Virus record (IMG/VR): IMGVR_UViG_3300035661_000012
Span: 90,305-154,304 of that record
Origin: a virus
DNA length: 64,000 nucleotides
Direction: 5' to 3' (one strand)
The notes under the pieces were generated by a model, which searched no databases, was not told the origin of the DNA, and was given only the letters and a program-made list of their open reading frames with translations. A program made the position numbers and the translations under genes. Positions 58,354 to 64,000 of the stretch are shown in pieces. Numbering within the stretch: position 1 is the stretch's first letter; the number at the start of each line of letters is the position of its first letter.

Positions 58354-60978
58354 TTAAAATACAACCCAAATAGACTTTGTGCTGCTTATTTTGGTCGAAA
58401 CTCTTCCCTCTTTCTCGTCTCTTTTGATAGAATAATATGGGAAGAATGTGCATTTTGCTGGAATTTTGCCATCGAATCCGTCTTCTGCCTTCAATTCATA
58501 CTTGCCAAAGAATAACTTACCATTCTTAACAACTAATTCATTAAGATTAGCGAAATCTATATTCTTTGGAAGACCTTCACCGAAGAATCTAACAACTGTT
58601 GTCTTCTTCTTTGTCTCGGCAAGCTCCATAGCTGGATAATCTGTTCTGAAAGCTTCCCAGAATTTATCAATATGAAGAACGAAGCTACCTGTTGGGCTTT
58701 GAGTTTTATTTAAATACTCTCTGATATATTGAATCTTAGCAGCGAGACAGATGCTCTTTGTTGCCTCTTCGACAAATGAATAGAAAATCTTCATGATTTT
58801 CTCATCATGGAGTTCGCCATTAGGAGCTGTATGGCTATTCAAGATGCCGAGAGCTTTTAAGATTAGGAATTGTCTCTTGATTTCATTATTATCCATGCCA
58901 GAAATATCAGCGATACCCATATATGGAGGACGGCTGAATACTGGTAGGGGTTGTTTCATTTTATCAAGCTCGGCAATCTTCTTATTTGCTAACTGTATAT
59001 TAGCATTCCAAACATGATCCATATGATGAAGTGGTTCGCTGATTGTATATTTCTTAGTAAATTCAGCAAAATCATCAAATTCTTCATCTTTGATTTTCTT
59101 GAGTTTCCATTCTGTATTGACAAGCTCTCTAACCAATCTCTCTGTTTCATAATCACGATTGCGGATAGCCATAATTCTATCCGTCATATCATGCTTTGCA
59201 CTCTTGATTACGGCTTCGATCCCTTCATAATAAACTTTAAGCAATTCTAACGCATTTTCTTCATCAACTAAGCCATTATCAATAGCAACCTCCATCATAT
59301 AATAATTATCGGTGAGCTGACCAATAAGCGAGGAATTTGCCATAATTTCGCTCATTATTATGGCAATGTTTTCAATAGTGATATCATAACGTTTGCGAGA
59401 TCTGGAAACTACATTGATATCACGCAACGGTTTAACCAAATTATTATCAATGGCGAATTTAACAGCATCGCCAACAACACCGAAAACACCATCGCCATCA
59501 CCATCTACATTTATACTATCGGCAAGGGACTTAGACAAGATCCAATATTTAGAACGACGATTAACATCGTTCATCTTAACGATACCTAAGCCAGCAGTTA
59601 TCGGATACTTGCCAATTATTGTATCACCTTTCTTGTTATATTTTAAGCCGGCGGCAATCCAATCTTCAACAACTACAGCAATTCTCATTGTTGCATTTGG
59701 ATTTGGACGTTTAACCAAATATCTAGCTATTTGGCGTTTGATATATTCATTAACAGCTGGATAGCTAGGTCCTAAAGTTAACAATCCAGCAATCATTTTA
59801 TAGCTTATCTGCAATGGTTCATACGGTTCATTATTCATATGAGCAGCAATGCGGCGTTTAGCCTCCATACCGAGAACTATGTCTTTATAATCAAAGTCAT
59901 AGCTCATTTCATCGGCAAATAGCTGACTTAGTTTATTGCTGAGTTTGAAGAATTGATAATATTCAAAGCCAGTAGATATACTTTGATTGTTAACTGTTCT
60001 GACATTATTATAAGTGATTCCTAATAAACCGGACATATAACCTGGCGCTGGTTTATTAATCTTAAAATCATCTACGCACATAACGATGTCAGCAGACATA
60101 TCAACATGACTGAGCATTAGACCAATCTCCTTTGCAGAATCTAAGGAAATGATATTGCCTTTACCGATGCTGTTACCAGCCTTTAATCTAAATTGACCAG
60201 GCAATATTCTATTCTTTACATCGATAGCAGTACCATATCCAGGAACTAAGCCGATTTCTCTGAATTCCTCGGCACTCAAAACCTGGATCTTATTTAGTTT
60301 ATAGAACATTGGACGGCCATTATAAATGCTGACTGGCGTCATCGGAAGCGAGAGATAACCAACAGCATCTGCAGCCTGAGCAAATGGGTGATTTGGCCAT
60401 TTAACGCCATAAAATACACCCTTGTTTGTCGAGGTGCCACCATAGAGGTCGCAACCCTCCTGTTTAAAGAATGCAAATAAGATTTCTGGCAATTCTGGAG
60501 ATGCCAAAAATTCATTCTTTATCTTTTCTGTACGTGCAGATATCTCGTAACTTCTTGTTTCGAGAATTTCTGGCATATCACCATCCAAACAGTATCTCAT
60601 TTCAATACCATCTGGAAATTGATACTTATCTTTGTGAACGCGTACCTTGGCGATCTTGAAACTACTGCCATCTCTGACAACATCCACGATGAATCTGTGG
60701 ATTTTAGCTGGTTTGATGTCTGTTGCTACGCCATTGGGCGTGAATTCGTCGATGCTAAACAATGCATCGATAAAACGAGTGATTGAATCTGCTTTCATTG
60801 CTTTCTCCTTATTGTTATTGTGATTGAAAAGATTGCTGATTAAAAGATCGTCTGCTGTTTTAACTTGAGCGTTCATTGTTCTCTCTCCTTGATTTGTGAT
60901 TGTGATTGTTTTAGTTGTGTTCATGTTGAGCATATTGATATTTATGCTCTTGTCAATTGTGTTGATATTTGTATTCAT
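58354..60978 (-). CDS. Second RNA polymerase-like protein (YonO/QDE-1-like barrel)
   Basis: 874 aa. SKSLADSINVDGDGDGVFGV near residue 500 contains the DGDGD form of the DxDGD metal motif; IMANSSLIGQLTDNYYMMEV about 60 residues later parallels the IG-NxHL helix of RdRp/YonO proteins. Upstream, YLVKRPNPNATMRIAVVV recalls the RxPxxxxxS region of beta'-like chains. Three in-frame ATGs, at 60978, 60876 and 60798, each have their own AAGGAG; the shortest starts MKADSITRFI. It ends at a strong terminator. Probable virus-encoded RNA polymerase. Confidence 0.65.
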   Translation of the reverse strand: MNTNINTIDKSININMLNMNTTKTITITNQGERTMNAQVKTADDLLISNLFNHNNNKEKAMKADSITRFIDALFSIDEFTPNGVATDIKPAKIHRFIVDVVRDGSSFKIAKVRVHKDKYQFPDGIEMRYCLDGDMPEILETRSYEISARTEKIKNEFLASPELPEILFAFFKQEGCDLYGGTSTNKGVFYGVKWPNHPFAQAADAVGYLSLPMTPVSIYNGRPMFYKLNKIQVLSAEEFREIGLVPGYGTAIDVKNRILPGQFRLKAGNSIGKGNIISLDSAKEIGLMLSHVDMSADIVMCVDDFKINKPAPGYMSGLLGITYNNVRTVNNQSISTGFEYYQFFKLSNKLSQLFADEMSYDFDYKDIVLGMEAKRRIAAHMNNEPYEPLQISYKMIAGLLTLGPSYPAVNEYIKRQIARYLVKRPNPNATMRIAVVVEDWIAAGLKYNKKGDTIIGKYPITAGLGIVKMNDVNRRSKYWILSKSLADSINVDGDGDGVFGVVGDAVKFAIDNNLVKPLRDINVVSRSRKRYDITIENIAIIMSEIMANSSLIGQLTDNYYMMEVAIDNGLVDEENALELLKVYYEGIEAVIKSAKHDMTDRIMAIRNRDYETERLVRELVNTEWKLKKIKDEEFDDFAEFTKKYTISEPLHHMDHVWNANIQLANKKIAELDKMKQPLPVFSRPPYMGIADISGMDNNEIKRQFLILKALGILNSHTAPNGELHDEKIMKIFYSFVEEATKSICLAAKIQYIREYLNKTQSPTGSFVLHIDKFWEAFRTDYPAMELAETKKKTTVVRFFGEGLPKNIDFANLNELVVKNGKLFFGKYELKAEDGFDGKIPAKCTFFPYYSIKRDEKEGRVSTKISSTKSIWVVF

Positions 60979-62323: not shown

Positions 62324-62370
62324 CTCCCGCGCCCGACTTGAACGGGCAACCAGCCTTACTGGGGCGGGAA
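62324..62370 (-). ncRNA. 47-nt minimal tRNA-like fold A
   Basis: Minus sense: 7-bp acceptor-like stem TTCCCGC/GCGGGAG, 1-nt link, D-like hairpin CCAG-TAAGG-CTGG, 2-nt link, T arm GCCCG-TTCAAGT-CGGGC with canonical T loop, joined directly to the stem as in tRNA. There is no anticodon arm and no CCA. It lies between the 123-aa gene and leader copy 1. Confidence 0.65.
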
Positions 62371-62375
62371 AGAGA

Positions 62376-62747
62376 TTATGACCGATGAACAATATAAAGG
62401 TCGGGGATAACATATTCTTCGCCCCTAACCTTTATCATTTTATATCGTTCATCAATCTCATCTACCTGCATACTTGAATTCTCTCCCATTATCTCAATAC
62501 TGCCATTATCTCTTATTATGACAGCAGAGATCACGGGGTTTAATAATCTGACAATTCCCCTAAACATCGGTTGACCTTTACGATCAACCTTATTCAAAGG
62601 AATTTCTTCGATTATGTCAGCCTCCCAAATCTCATCTTCTCTAACGAGTTTGAGATTTTCGAAGGCCGGAAAGACAACTCTTCCATTTCGGAAGATCGGG
62701 TCGCTCGTGAGCCTCCCGAACTTGTCTCTCTTTATTTTAAATATCAT
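62376..62747 (-). CDS. Hypothetical protein, 123 aa
   Basis: IFKIKRDKFGRLTSDPIFRN start, beta-rich throughout (AVIIRDNGSIEIMGENSSMQ, MIKVRGEEYVIPDLYIV). The start is preceded by structured leader copy 2 and AAGGAG. No family recognised. Confidence 0.6.
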   Translation of the reverse strand: MIFKIKRDKFGRLTSDPIFRNGRVVFPAFENLKLVREDEIWEADIIEEIPLNKVDRKGQPMFRGIVRLLNPVISAVIIRDNGSIEIMGENSSMQVDEIDERYKMIKVRGEEYVIPDLYIVHRS

Positions 62748-62751
62748 AATG

Positions 62752-62862
62752 AACTCCTTGCCCTTCTGGGCGATTTATGTCCTACGAAAGCCACGTCATC
62801 TAACGTGTTAAACTCGGACTTATGGTTTCATCAGCTATGGTTTATAGTGGAGCCTATTCCAC
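62752..62862 (-). promoter_or_regulatory. Repeated structured leader, copy 2
   Basis: Same element: hairpin GTGGA-ATAGGC-TCCAC, AGCTGATGAAAC, loop GTCC pairing with downstream GGAC, hairpin CACGT ... ACGTG, GGCTTTCGTAGG, hairpin GCCC-AGAA-GGGC, AAGGAG. Compensatory changes relative to copy 1 support the structure. Confidence 0.65.
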
Positions 62863-62869
62863 TTTCTAG

Positions 62870-62916
62870 TTCCCACGCCCGACTCGAACGGGCAGCTGGC
62901 CTTTCCAGGGCGGGAA
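62870..62916 (-). ncRNA. 47-nt minimal tRNA-like fold B
   Basis: Same length and layout as copy A: stem TTCCCGC/GTGGGAA, D-like hairpin CTGG-AAAGG-CCAG, T arm GCCCG-TTCGAGT-CGGGC. The D-like stem is swapped base for base against copy A (CCAG/CTGG versus CTGG/CCAG), strong evidence for selection on structure. Confidence 0.7.
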
Positions 62917-63379: not shown

Positions 63380-64000
63380 TTATGTCAACTTATGGAAGGC
63401 CTCTACAAGACCTTCCGCAATACTATCGATAAGGCCAACGTTAACTCTATAAACGTACATAACCCTACCGTTATTTACTGGCATCCATTCAGCTTTTGGA
63501 CTACCAGAATTATGAGCATAAGTATCCATATAAATCCATGTGGATTTTGGTGATATCTTATGCTGCATTAGATGGCCTATGCCATCGCCGTCACCAATAT
63601 AGAGAACATAGTCGAATTTATCGTATATTCTCTGCTGATCAATTGACTGATCTTTGTTTTCATCTATTATTTCGCCATTTCCATTTGACGCATAATAGAT
63701 GTCGACATTGATATCTTTGGCGAATTTTGCTAATGCTTGGGCGATCTTTTTCGTAGCACCCGAGAATGCGGCACATGAACCGCTCTCATCATTTGTGATG
63801 AGAATCTTTGGTCCCGTACTCATCCGCCAAGGATCATATACTGCAGGTAGCGGATTTCTATTTGTTGCCCGCAGTATTTCGTATTTCAAAGGATTCATTT
63901 TCTCTTCTTCAATTGTGGGTAATCCTTTCAAACCCCACAATTTAGCCAACGTTTCAACACAAATCATTACTTCGCGATCATCTACTTCGACATCGCCACC
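63380..64000 (-). CDS. vWA-like protein, N-terminus outside window
   Basis: Open reading frame continues to the window edge, so the gene is partial here. PKILITNDESGSCAAFSGAT has a MIDAS-like DxSxS, followed by KIAQALAKFAKDINVDIYYA and KFDYVLYIGDGDG, the order seen in von Willebrand factor A domains. The C-terminus (RVNVGLIDSIAEGLVEAFHK) is helical. Such domains bind metal and partner proteins. Family not secure. Confidence 0.5.
   Translation of the reverse strand, partial: GGDVEVDDREVMICVETLAKLWGLKGLPTIEEEKMNPLKYEILRATNRNPLPAVYDPWRMSTGPKILITNDESGSCAAFSGATKKIAQALAKFAKDINVDIYYASNGNGEIIDENKDQSIDQQRIYDKFDYVLYIGDGDGIGHLMQHKISPKSTWIYMDTYAHNSGSPKAEWMPVNNGRVMYVYRVNVGLIDSIAEGLVEAFHKLT

Follow-up and report, generated by a model that had tools for sequence, protein, structure and literature searches.

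In mitochondria, RNase P and RNase Z cut at tRNAs and so free messages from a polycistronic transcript. The two enzymes recognise the acceptor/T-arm helix together with the elbow formed between the GG of the D-loop and the T-loop, and a CCA blocks RNase Z. The phage elements described here resemble this punctuation in that tRNA folds stand between genes, but the mitochondrial spacers are working tRNAs, whereas the phage elements cannot decode. Mimicry of the acceptor/T-arm without a normal anticodon arm is likewise found in the tRNA-like domain of tmRNA and the 3' tRNA-like structures of plant viruses, although these carry a terminal CCA and function in ribosome rescue or replication, while the main type of phage element (type 1) is internal and CCA-less. 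Human mascRNA is cut from a longer precursor by RNase P and RNase Z, and its crystal structure shows an elbow in a reduced mimic, where two Gs of the D-loop make stacking and pairing contacts with the T-loop (PMC11693755). The mascRNA/menRNA family (RF01684; 3' ends of MALAT1 and MEN-beta) shares with the phage elements the compact tRNA mimicry and a small D-arm whose two essential Gs make contact with the T-loop, and the GG and TTCRA of the mascRNA elbow are also kept in the phage elements. However, mascRNA is eukaryotic, has an anticodon-like stem and receives CCA, whereas the phage elements have no anticodon arm, measure 47-53 nt and lie between genes.

RNase P also cuts non-tRNA phage RNAs and polycistronic mRNAs (reviewed in PMC11143913). 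Among such substrates, the C4 antisense RNA of P1/P7 and intergenic sites in E. coli operons are comparable to the elements studied here. To our knowledge, these phage and operon substrates are single cases, and we know of none that is a recurrent fold of acceptor, D-arm and T-arm. Where hammerheads flank single genes in prophages, a proposed role is to divide long phage transcripts into messages the length of an operon or a gene (PMC3088659). Self-cleaving hammerhead and twister ribozymes in phage gene gaps occupy the same kind of intergenic slot as the elements described below; unlike these ribozymes, the mini-tRNAs match no ribozyme family, and their cutting would need a host enzyme.

Two anticodon-less tRNA-like elements at gene boundaries

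The window analysed covers the rightmost 64 kb of virus record IMGVR_UViG_3300035661_000012 (154,304 b). Because the window end overlaps the record start by 185 b with 1 mismatch, the phage genome is probably circular. All genes around the two elements under study, A and B, are carried by the minus strand, and the elements were therefore read on that strand (Table 1). Each is 47 nt long and consists of a 7-bp acceptor stem, one C, a 4-bp D-like hairpin whose loop ends in AGG, two nt and a 5-bp T-stem closed by the loop TTCAAGT (A) or TTCGAGT (B), a structure with a stability of about -24 kcal/mol. A sequence-only reading of this DNA had described an identical 7-1-13-2-17-7 layout in both, and this proved correct, along with the coordinates, as did its statement that the D stem is inverted base for base, CCAG/CTGG in A becoming CTGG/CCAG in B. 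Compensating changes in the acceptor, which it had also claimed, are not seen when A and B alone are compared, since these differ only by wobble (T-G to T-A, G-C to G-T), but do appear once four further copies are added.

Table 1. Features of the locus, in window coordinates
Feature	Start	End	Strand	Description
Twister-P1-like self-cleaving ribozyme motif	54467	54518	-	39.9 bits, E 3e-5, under the Rfam gathering score
Type-2 element	57382	57434	-	acceptor GGTTCTG/CTGAATC (6/7), D-arm GGTT-AATGGT-AGCC, T-arm GTGGG-TTCGATT-CCCAC, ACCA
Conserved 5' hairpin domain joined to type-2 element	57438	57484	-	common to related phage G001
Gene 3' of element A and leader 1	61425	62219	-	264 aa; no family match
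Leader 1, repeated structured 5' leader	62224	62316	-	between element A and gene 62219-61425
Element A, minimal tRNA-like fold	62324	62370	-	5' to 3' from 62370: acceptor TTCCCGC, C, D-like hairpin CCAG-TAAGG-CTGG, TT, T-arm GCCCG-TTCAAGT-CGGGC, acceptor GCGGGAG
Gene preceding element A	62376	62747	-	123 aa; no family match; homologues in G001
Leader 2, motif as leader 1	62766	62862	-	between element B and gene 62747-62376
Element B, layout as in A	62870	62916	-	5' to 3' from 62916: acceptor TTCCCGC, C, inverted D stem CTGG-AAAGG-CCAG, CT, T-arm GCCCG-TTCGAGT-CGGGC, acceptor GTGGGAA; G-T wobble in acceptor
Gene preceding element B	62932	63243	-	103 aa; no convincing family match
Leader 3, motif as leader 1	63262	63357	-	upstream of gene 63243-62932; no mini-tRNA ahead

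The TTCRANY T-loop, the 7-bp acceptor and the GG in the D-loop are features of canonical tRNAs, and an anticodon arm is absent from A and B, the distance from acceptor to T-stem being just 16 nt. No canonical four-arm tRNA was called in the window or in the sequences L004 and L022. Type-1 elements and leaders fit no Rfam family at gathering or permissive thresholds, and no ribozyme family (hammerhead, twister, pistol and others) gave an Rfam match over them. That A and B are structured tRNA-like elements is near certain. Element A starts 5 nt and element B 15 nt past a stop codon, and each is directly followed by a structured leader (leaders 1 and 2), so both parts of the earlier description of their position stand. 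On the 3' side, A is followed by a C at the discriminator position and then TAA, with no CCA, and B by C-TAG; a T-run follows neither.

The leader motif is present in four copies, the fourth at L004 2279-2170 (-), and shows covariation; its order is a hairpin, a TAAA-ATA stretch, GAGTTYAAC, a second hairpin and GTAGG. It was not found near the orthologues in G001. Assignment of the leaders by eye to hammerhead or pistol was rejected, with no Rfam match, and the motif could be a riboswitch, a ribozyme or a protection element.

Two protein searches returned G001 (IMGVR_UViG_3300005573_000055, 155,523 b) as the sole relative found, and INPHARED contained no relative. At 58354-60978 (-), the window also encodes an 874-aa protein with INVDGDGDGVFG, which by eye resembles the DxDGD motif of single-chain YonO-like RNA polymerases; Pfam and PHROG gave no match for this protein, and a protein search with its gene found zero relatives.

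Further copies and compensatory change

When the 64 kb were scanned for the architecture (at least 6/7 acceptor pairs, a TTCRANY loop on a T-stem of 5 bp, and a hairpin containing GG), it was found at three places, all on the minus strand, namely A, B and 57434-57382, while 100 dinucleotide shuffles of the window contained none. To the right of position 64,000, where the sequence-only reading had proposed to look for more copies, two type-1 copies, C and D, lie across the origin in the first 2.2 kb of the record, which joins the window end. Copy C sits between an AAA ATPase gene and its next gene, and copy D precedes a long non-coding stretch or non-coding RNA rather than a gene. G001 holds two type-1 copies, E and F; the genes on either side of copy E are those that flank copy C, and no gene directly follows copy F.

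The six copies were aligned, and D-loop letters beyond four were removed by hand ahead of the pair count. In this alignment 97.9% of the cells pair, and 8 of the 16 pairs, distributed over all three stems, change on both sides. The covariation score was 0.433, compared with 0.05-0.112 for slid-partner controls. Since half of the pairs change on both sides, the score is far above the slid controls and the shuffles hold no look-alikes, the fold of the type-1 elements is under selection. A covariance model found exactly four copies in this genome and two in G001, all with E < 1e-11; it was built from those same six copies, and its weight therefore lies in the absence of additional ones. None of the six is followed by CCA. 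At L004 2375-2336 (-), a stem TTCCCGCA...TGCGGGAA has the type-1 acceptor letters without a T-loop, and is possibly a decayed fifth copy.

Two other non-coding features were observed in this part of the genome. Upstream of the AAA ATPase gene lies a structured non-coding RNA of ∼470 nt (L004 about 2050-1560, -; homologue L022 about 12340-11863, -), which is conserved in G001, its predicted fold showing 25 compensatory pairs changed on both sides, and has no Rfam match, making it a candidate for a new large phage ncRNA. In addition, L004 3005-2680 (-), a non-coding stretch near a strand switch, carries a run of short imperfect AGAGAGCGACTGACTGA-like repeats.

A second type of element

The third place found by the architecture scan holds an element of a second type, in which the linker TGAAAGA stands where the anticodon arm belongs. 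Its homologue in G001 keeps the stems with compensating changes: the acceptor there is GGCTCAG/CTGAGCC, without the single mismatch of the window copy, and the D stem changes from GGTT to GGCT. The window copy has ACCA and the G001 homologue is without CCA. Against the Rfam mascRNA-menRNA model (RF01684), type 2 scored 19.3 bits, far below the gathering score of 42.5, and was therefore not filed under that family; type 1 gave no match to it. A pattern made from the 5' domain of type 2 matched 39 contigs, all of them by chance except G001.

Similar folds in unrelated phages

A pattern scan of IMG/VR, together with the covariance model, found similar folds in unrelated contigs. In a wide scan of the public phage contigs of IMG/VR, in which the T-arm plus a preceding CA was fixed and nothing else, 49 stretches were recovered, and most of them form an acceptor stem around the T-arm, with letters that vary from phage to phage. 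To assess this pairing, flanks were swapped between matches. Among the 38 distinct matches, an acceptor pairing score of at least 6 was reached by 74% with their own flanks and by 12% with swapped flanks, and a score of 6.5 by 39% and 2.6%, respectively. With a different T-stem (GCCGG/CCGGC), the values were 70% and 16% (n=10). Bacterial genomes gave only 23% with own and 12% with swapped flanks (n=26), and the class is therefore mainly viral. Because the T-arm sequence was held fixed in the wide scans, its constancy across phages is partly by construction, and the breadth obtained is a lower bound. The insert ranges from 13 to about 60 nt, so that the mini form stands at one extreme; a GG-loop hairpin was present in 6 of the 10 short-insert matches, against 1.6 expected (p=0.001). 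CCA followed none of the 38 matches. ARAGORN, where scanned, called none of the mini forms, and neither did Rfam.

The position of these matches relative to genes was also not random. A Shine-Dalgarno sequence and start codon were found at most 70 nt downstream of 23 of the 38, compared with 18% at random positions, and many copies stand 5-40 nt before the Shine-Dalgarno. An upstream frame of at least 100 codons ended within 150 nt of 16/28, compared with 28% at random, and 7 of these 16 frames ended 3-7 nt from the element. Copy number was four in the phage studied here, two each in G001, G002 and G011, and one in most contigs. The copies in L008 and L082 are followed by terminator-like hairpins.

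The search of cultured phages gave no clear example. When single elements were compared with INPHARED by BLAST, only chance-level matches resulted (E 2-6), of which phiHau3, 16-3, Xkcd426 and Spikelee, read individually, were unconvincing as members of the class. No element was present near the DnaE gene of Gordonia phage Gray, Rhodococcus phage E3 or Mycobacterium phage ScoobyDoobyDoo, the cultured relatives of contig L146 at this gene. Plausible mini-tRNA folds were seen in bacterial genome matches from Rathayibacter (L202), a Clostridia MAG (L210) and Crossiella (L216), possibly within prophages, and these could supply a culturable test system.

Ribozyme-like motifs in gene gaps

On one strand of phage contig L166, four motifs follow within 4.2 kb (4902-701, -), each just before a gene: first a twister-like one, then one resembling hammerhead type II, a mini-tRNA and finally a second twister-like one; the scores of the ribozyme-like motifs fall under the Rfam gathering values. 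In the window, a small ORF has the twister-P1-like motif directly ahead of its Shine-Dalgarno and start, and the 3' strand of the motif's P1 extends into that Shine-Dalgarno, so that cutting could free it. A twister match was obtained in just 2 of the 20 phages tested, and the co-occurrence of mini-tRNAs and ribozyme-like motifs is thus an association in two genomes and not a statistic.

Discussion

Structure, compensatory conservation, intergenic placement, absence of CCA and spread through unrelated phages were all computed directly, and from these we infer that the elements mimic pre-tRNAs and draw the host's RNase P and RNase Z to polycistronic phage transcripts, which are thereby cut into separate messages, a reading to which we assign a probability of roughly 0.58. 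A and B would be two of four copies, besides the second type, of a mimic that lacks an anticodon arm, stands between genes and acts in cis; its 12-bp acceptor/T-arm helix and the elbow formed by its T-loop with the GG in the D-like loop would be read by the host enzymes that trim tRNA ends. RNase P would cut 5' of the acceptor stem, a few nt past the stop codon of the preceding gene, and RNase Z would cut after the discriminator; no CCA follows the fold, and RNase Z would therefore not be blocked. A mini-tRNA of ∼48 nt would be released, the upstream message would gain a defined 3' end and the downstream message a new 5' end, which in the window would begin with a structured leader.

The coaxial acceptor plus T-arm helix and D-T elbow of known substrates are present at the level of secondary structure and of the conserved GG and TTCRA, the tertiary contact being presumed, and the lack of CCA that suits RNase Z holds for 6/6 type-1 elements and 38/38 of the wide class, with the ACCA of the type-2 element in the window as the exception. 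Because the key features are kept, the decoding arm is dropped and CCA is absent, punctuation is the most economical reading. The suggestion in the sequence-only reading that the elements are RNase P/Z cutting guides is thus the better supported of its two proposals, given this signature, the between-gene sites in many unrelated phages and the slots shared in one phage with motifs of self-cleaving ribozymes, with the cutting itself still conjectural. Its other proposal, translational decoys, is not favoured: there is no overlap with a Shine-Dalgarno, a leader of ∼100 nt precedes the start codon for the copies in the window, and one copy precedes a non-coding RNA. Counting against punctuation, position 1 is usually U, not G, and absence of CCA weakens binding by RNase P of the E. 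coli type. Placement between genes is also not universal, as copies D and F show.

Several other explanations have to be weighed against punctuation. The elements might act in cis without being cut, either as a mimic bound by a tRNA-binding protein, for which a T-arm-modifying enzyme (TruB, TrmA), EF-Tu or RNase P as a binder are candidates, or as a 3' barrier protecting the upstream message. A T-loop of this kind is read by TruB and TrmA, the structure is very stable, and the many wide-class copies close ahead of a Shine-Dalgarno would suit such a role; nevertheless, we consider it unlikely, since the elements do not overlap the Shine-Dalgarno and the leaders of A and B intervene, D and F do not precede genes, and the acceptor letters vary freely among phages while pairing is kept, which fits enzymes reading the shape of the helix. 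Action in trans, with the excised RNA working as a decoy or as an effector that counters host tRNA enzymes or a tRNA-targeting defence, is suggested by the tRNA fold without an anticodon arm and by the genomes with multiple copies, but the sites are tied to gene boundaries and not to tRNA clusters, and most contigs have a single copy, making this explanation rather improbable.

The remaining two explanations appear very doubtful. Sequences derived from tRNAs are common in phages, and some wide-class inserts, at 40-60 nt, approach full tRNA length, so the elements could be relics, left either by the decay of phage tRNA genes or by att cores that derive from tRNA genes of the host. Covariation argues strongly against this, with compensatory changes in all three stems, as do the recurrent position from stop to start and the consistent absence of CCA in the wide class. 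An att core from a tRNA gene was rejected specifically, since such a core, expected beside an integrase, is the 3' half only, whereas here both acceptor halves are present and co-vary, in several copies per genome. Equally hard to credit is a terminator or antiterminator hairpin acting on transcription: in its favour, the elements are strong GC-rich hairpins directly past stop codons, and terminator-like hairpins lie 3' of the L008 and L082 copies, but A and B lack a T-run, a separate terminator hairpin is present where termination is likely, and hairpin terminators require no T-loop or D-loop consensus.

Beyond this phage, we consider the chances about even that the elements form a widespread class of anticodon-less mini-tRNAs, previously unnamed in the open-access literature, that serves as punctuation in tailed phages and is the RNase P/RNase Z counterpart of the ribozymes sharing its slots. 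If so, phages would run tRNA punctuation of the mitochondrial style without tRNAs, and would gain a general device for dividing transcripts by means of enzymes that the host needs. As substrates of RNase P and RNase Z, the elements would also be both natural and minimal, and they would form an additional class of tRNA-like RNA overlooked by ARAGORN and Rfam. The standing question of the role of self-cleaving ribozymes between phage genes would become testable through a comparison of two ways of cutting, unrelated to each other, that occupy the same slots.
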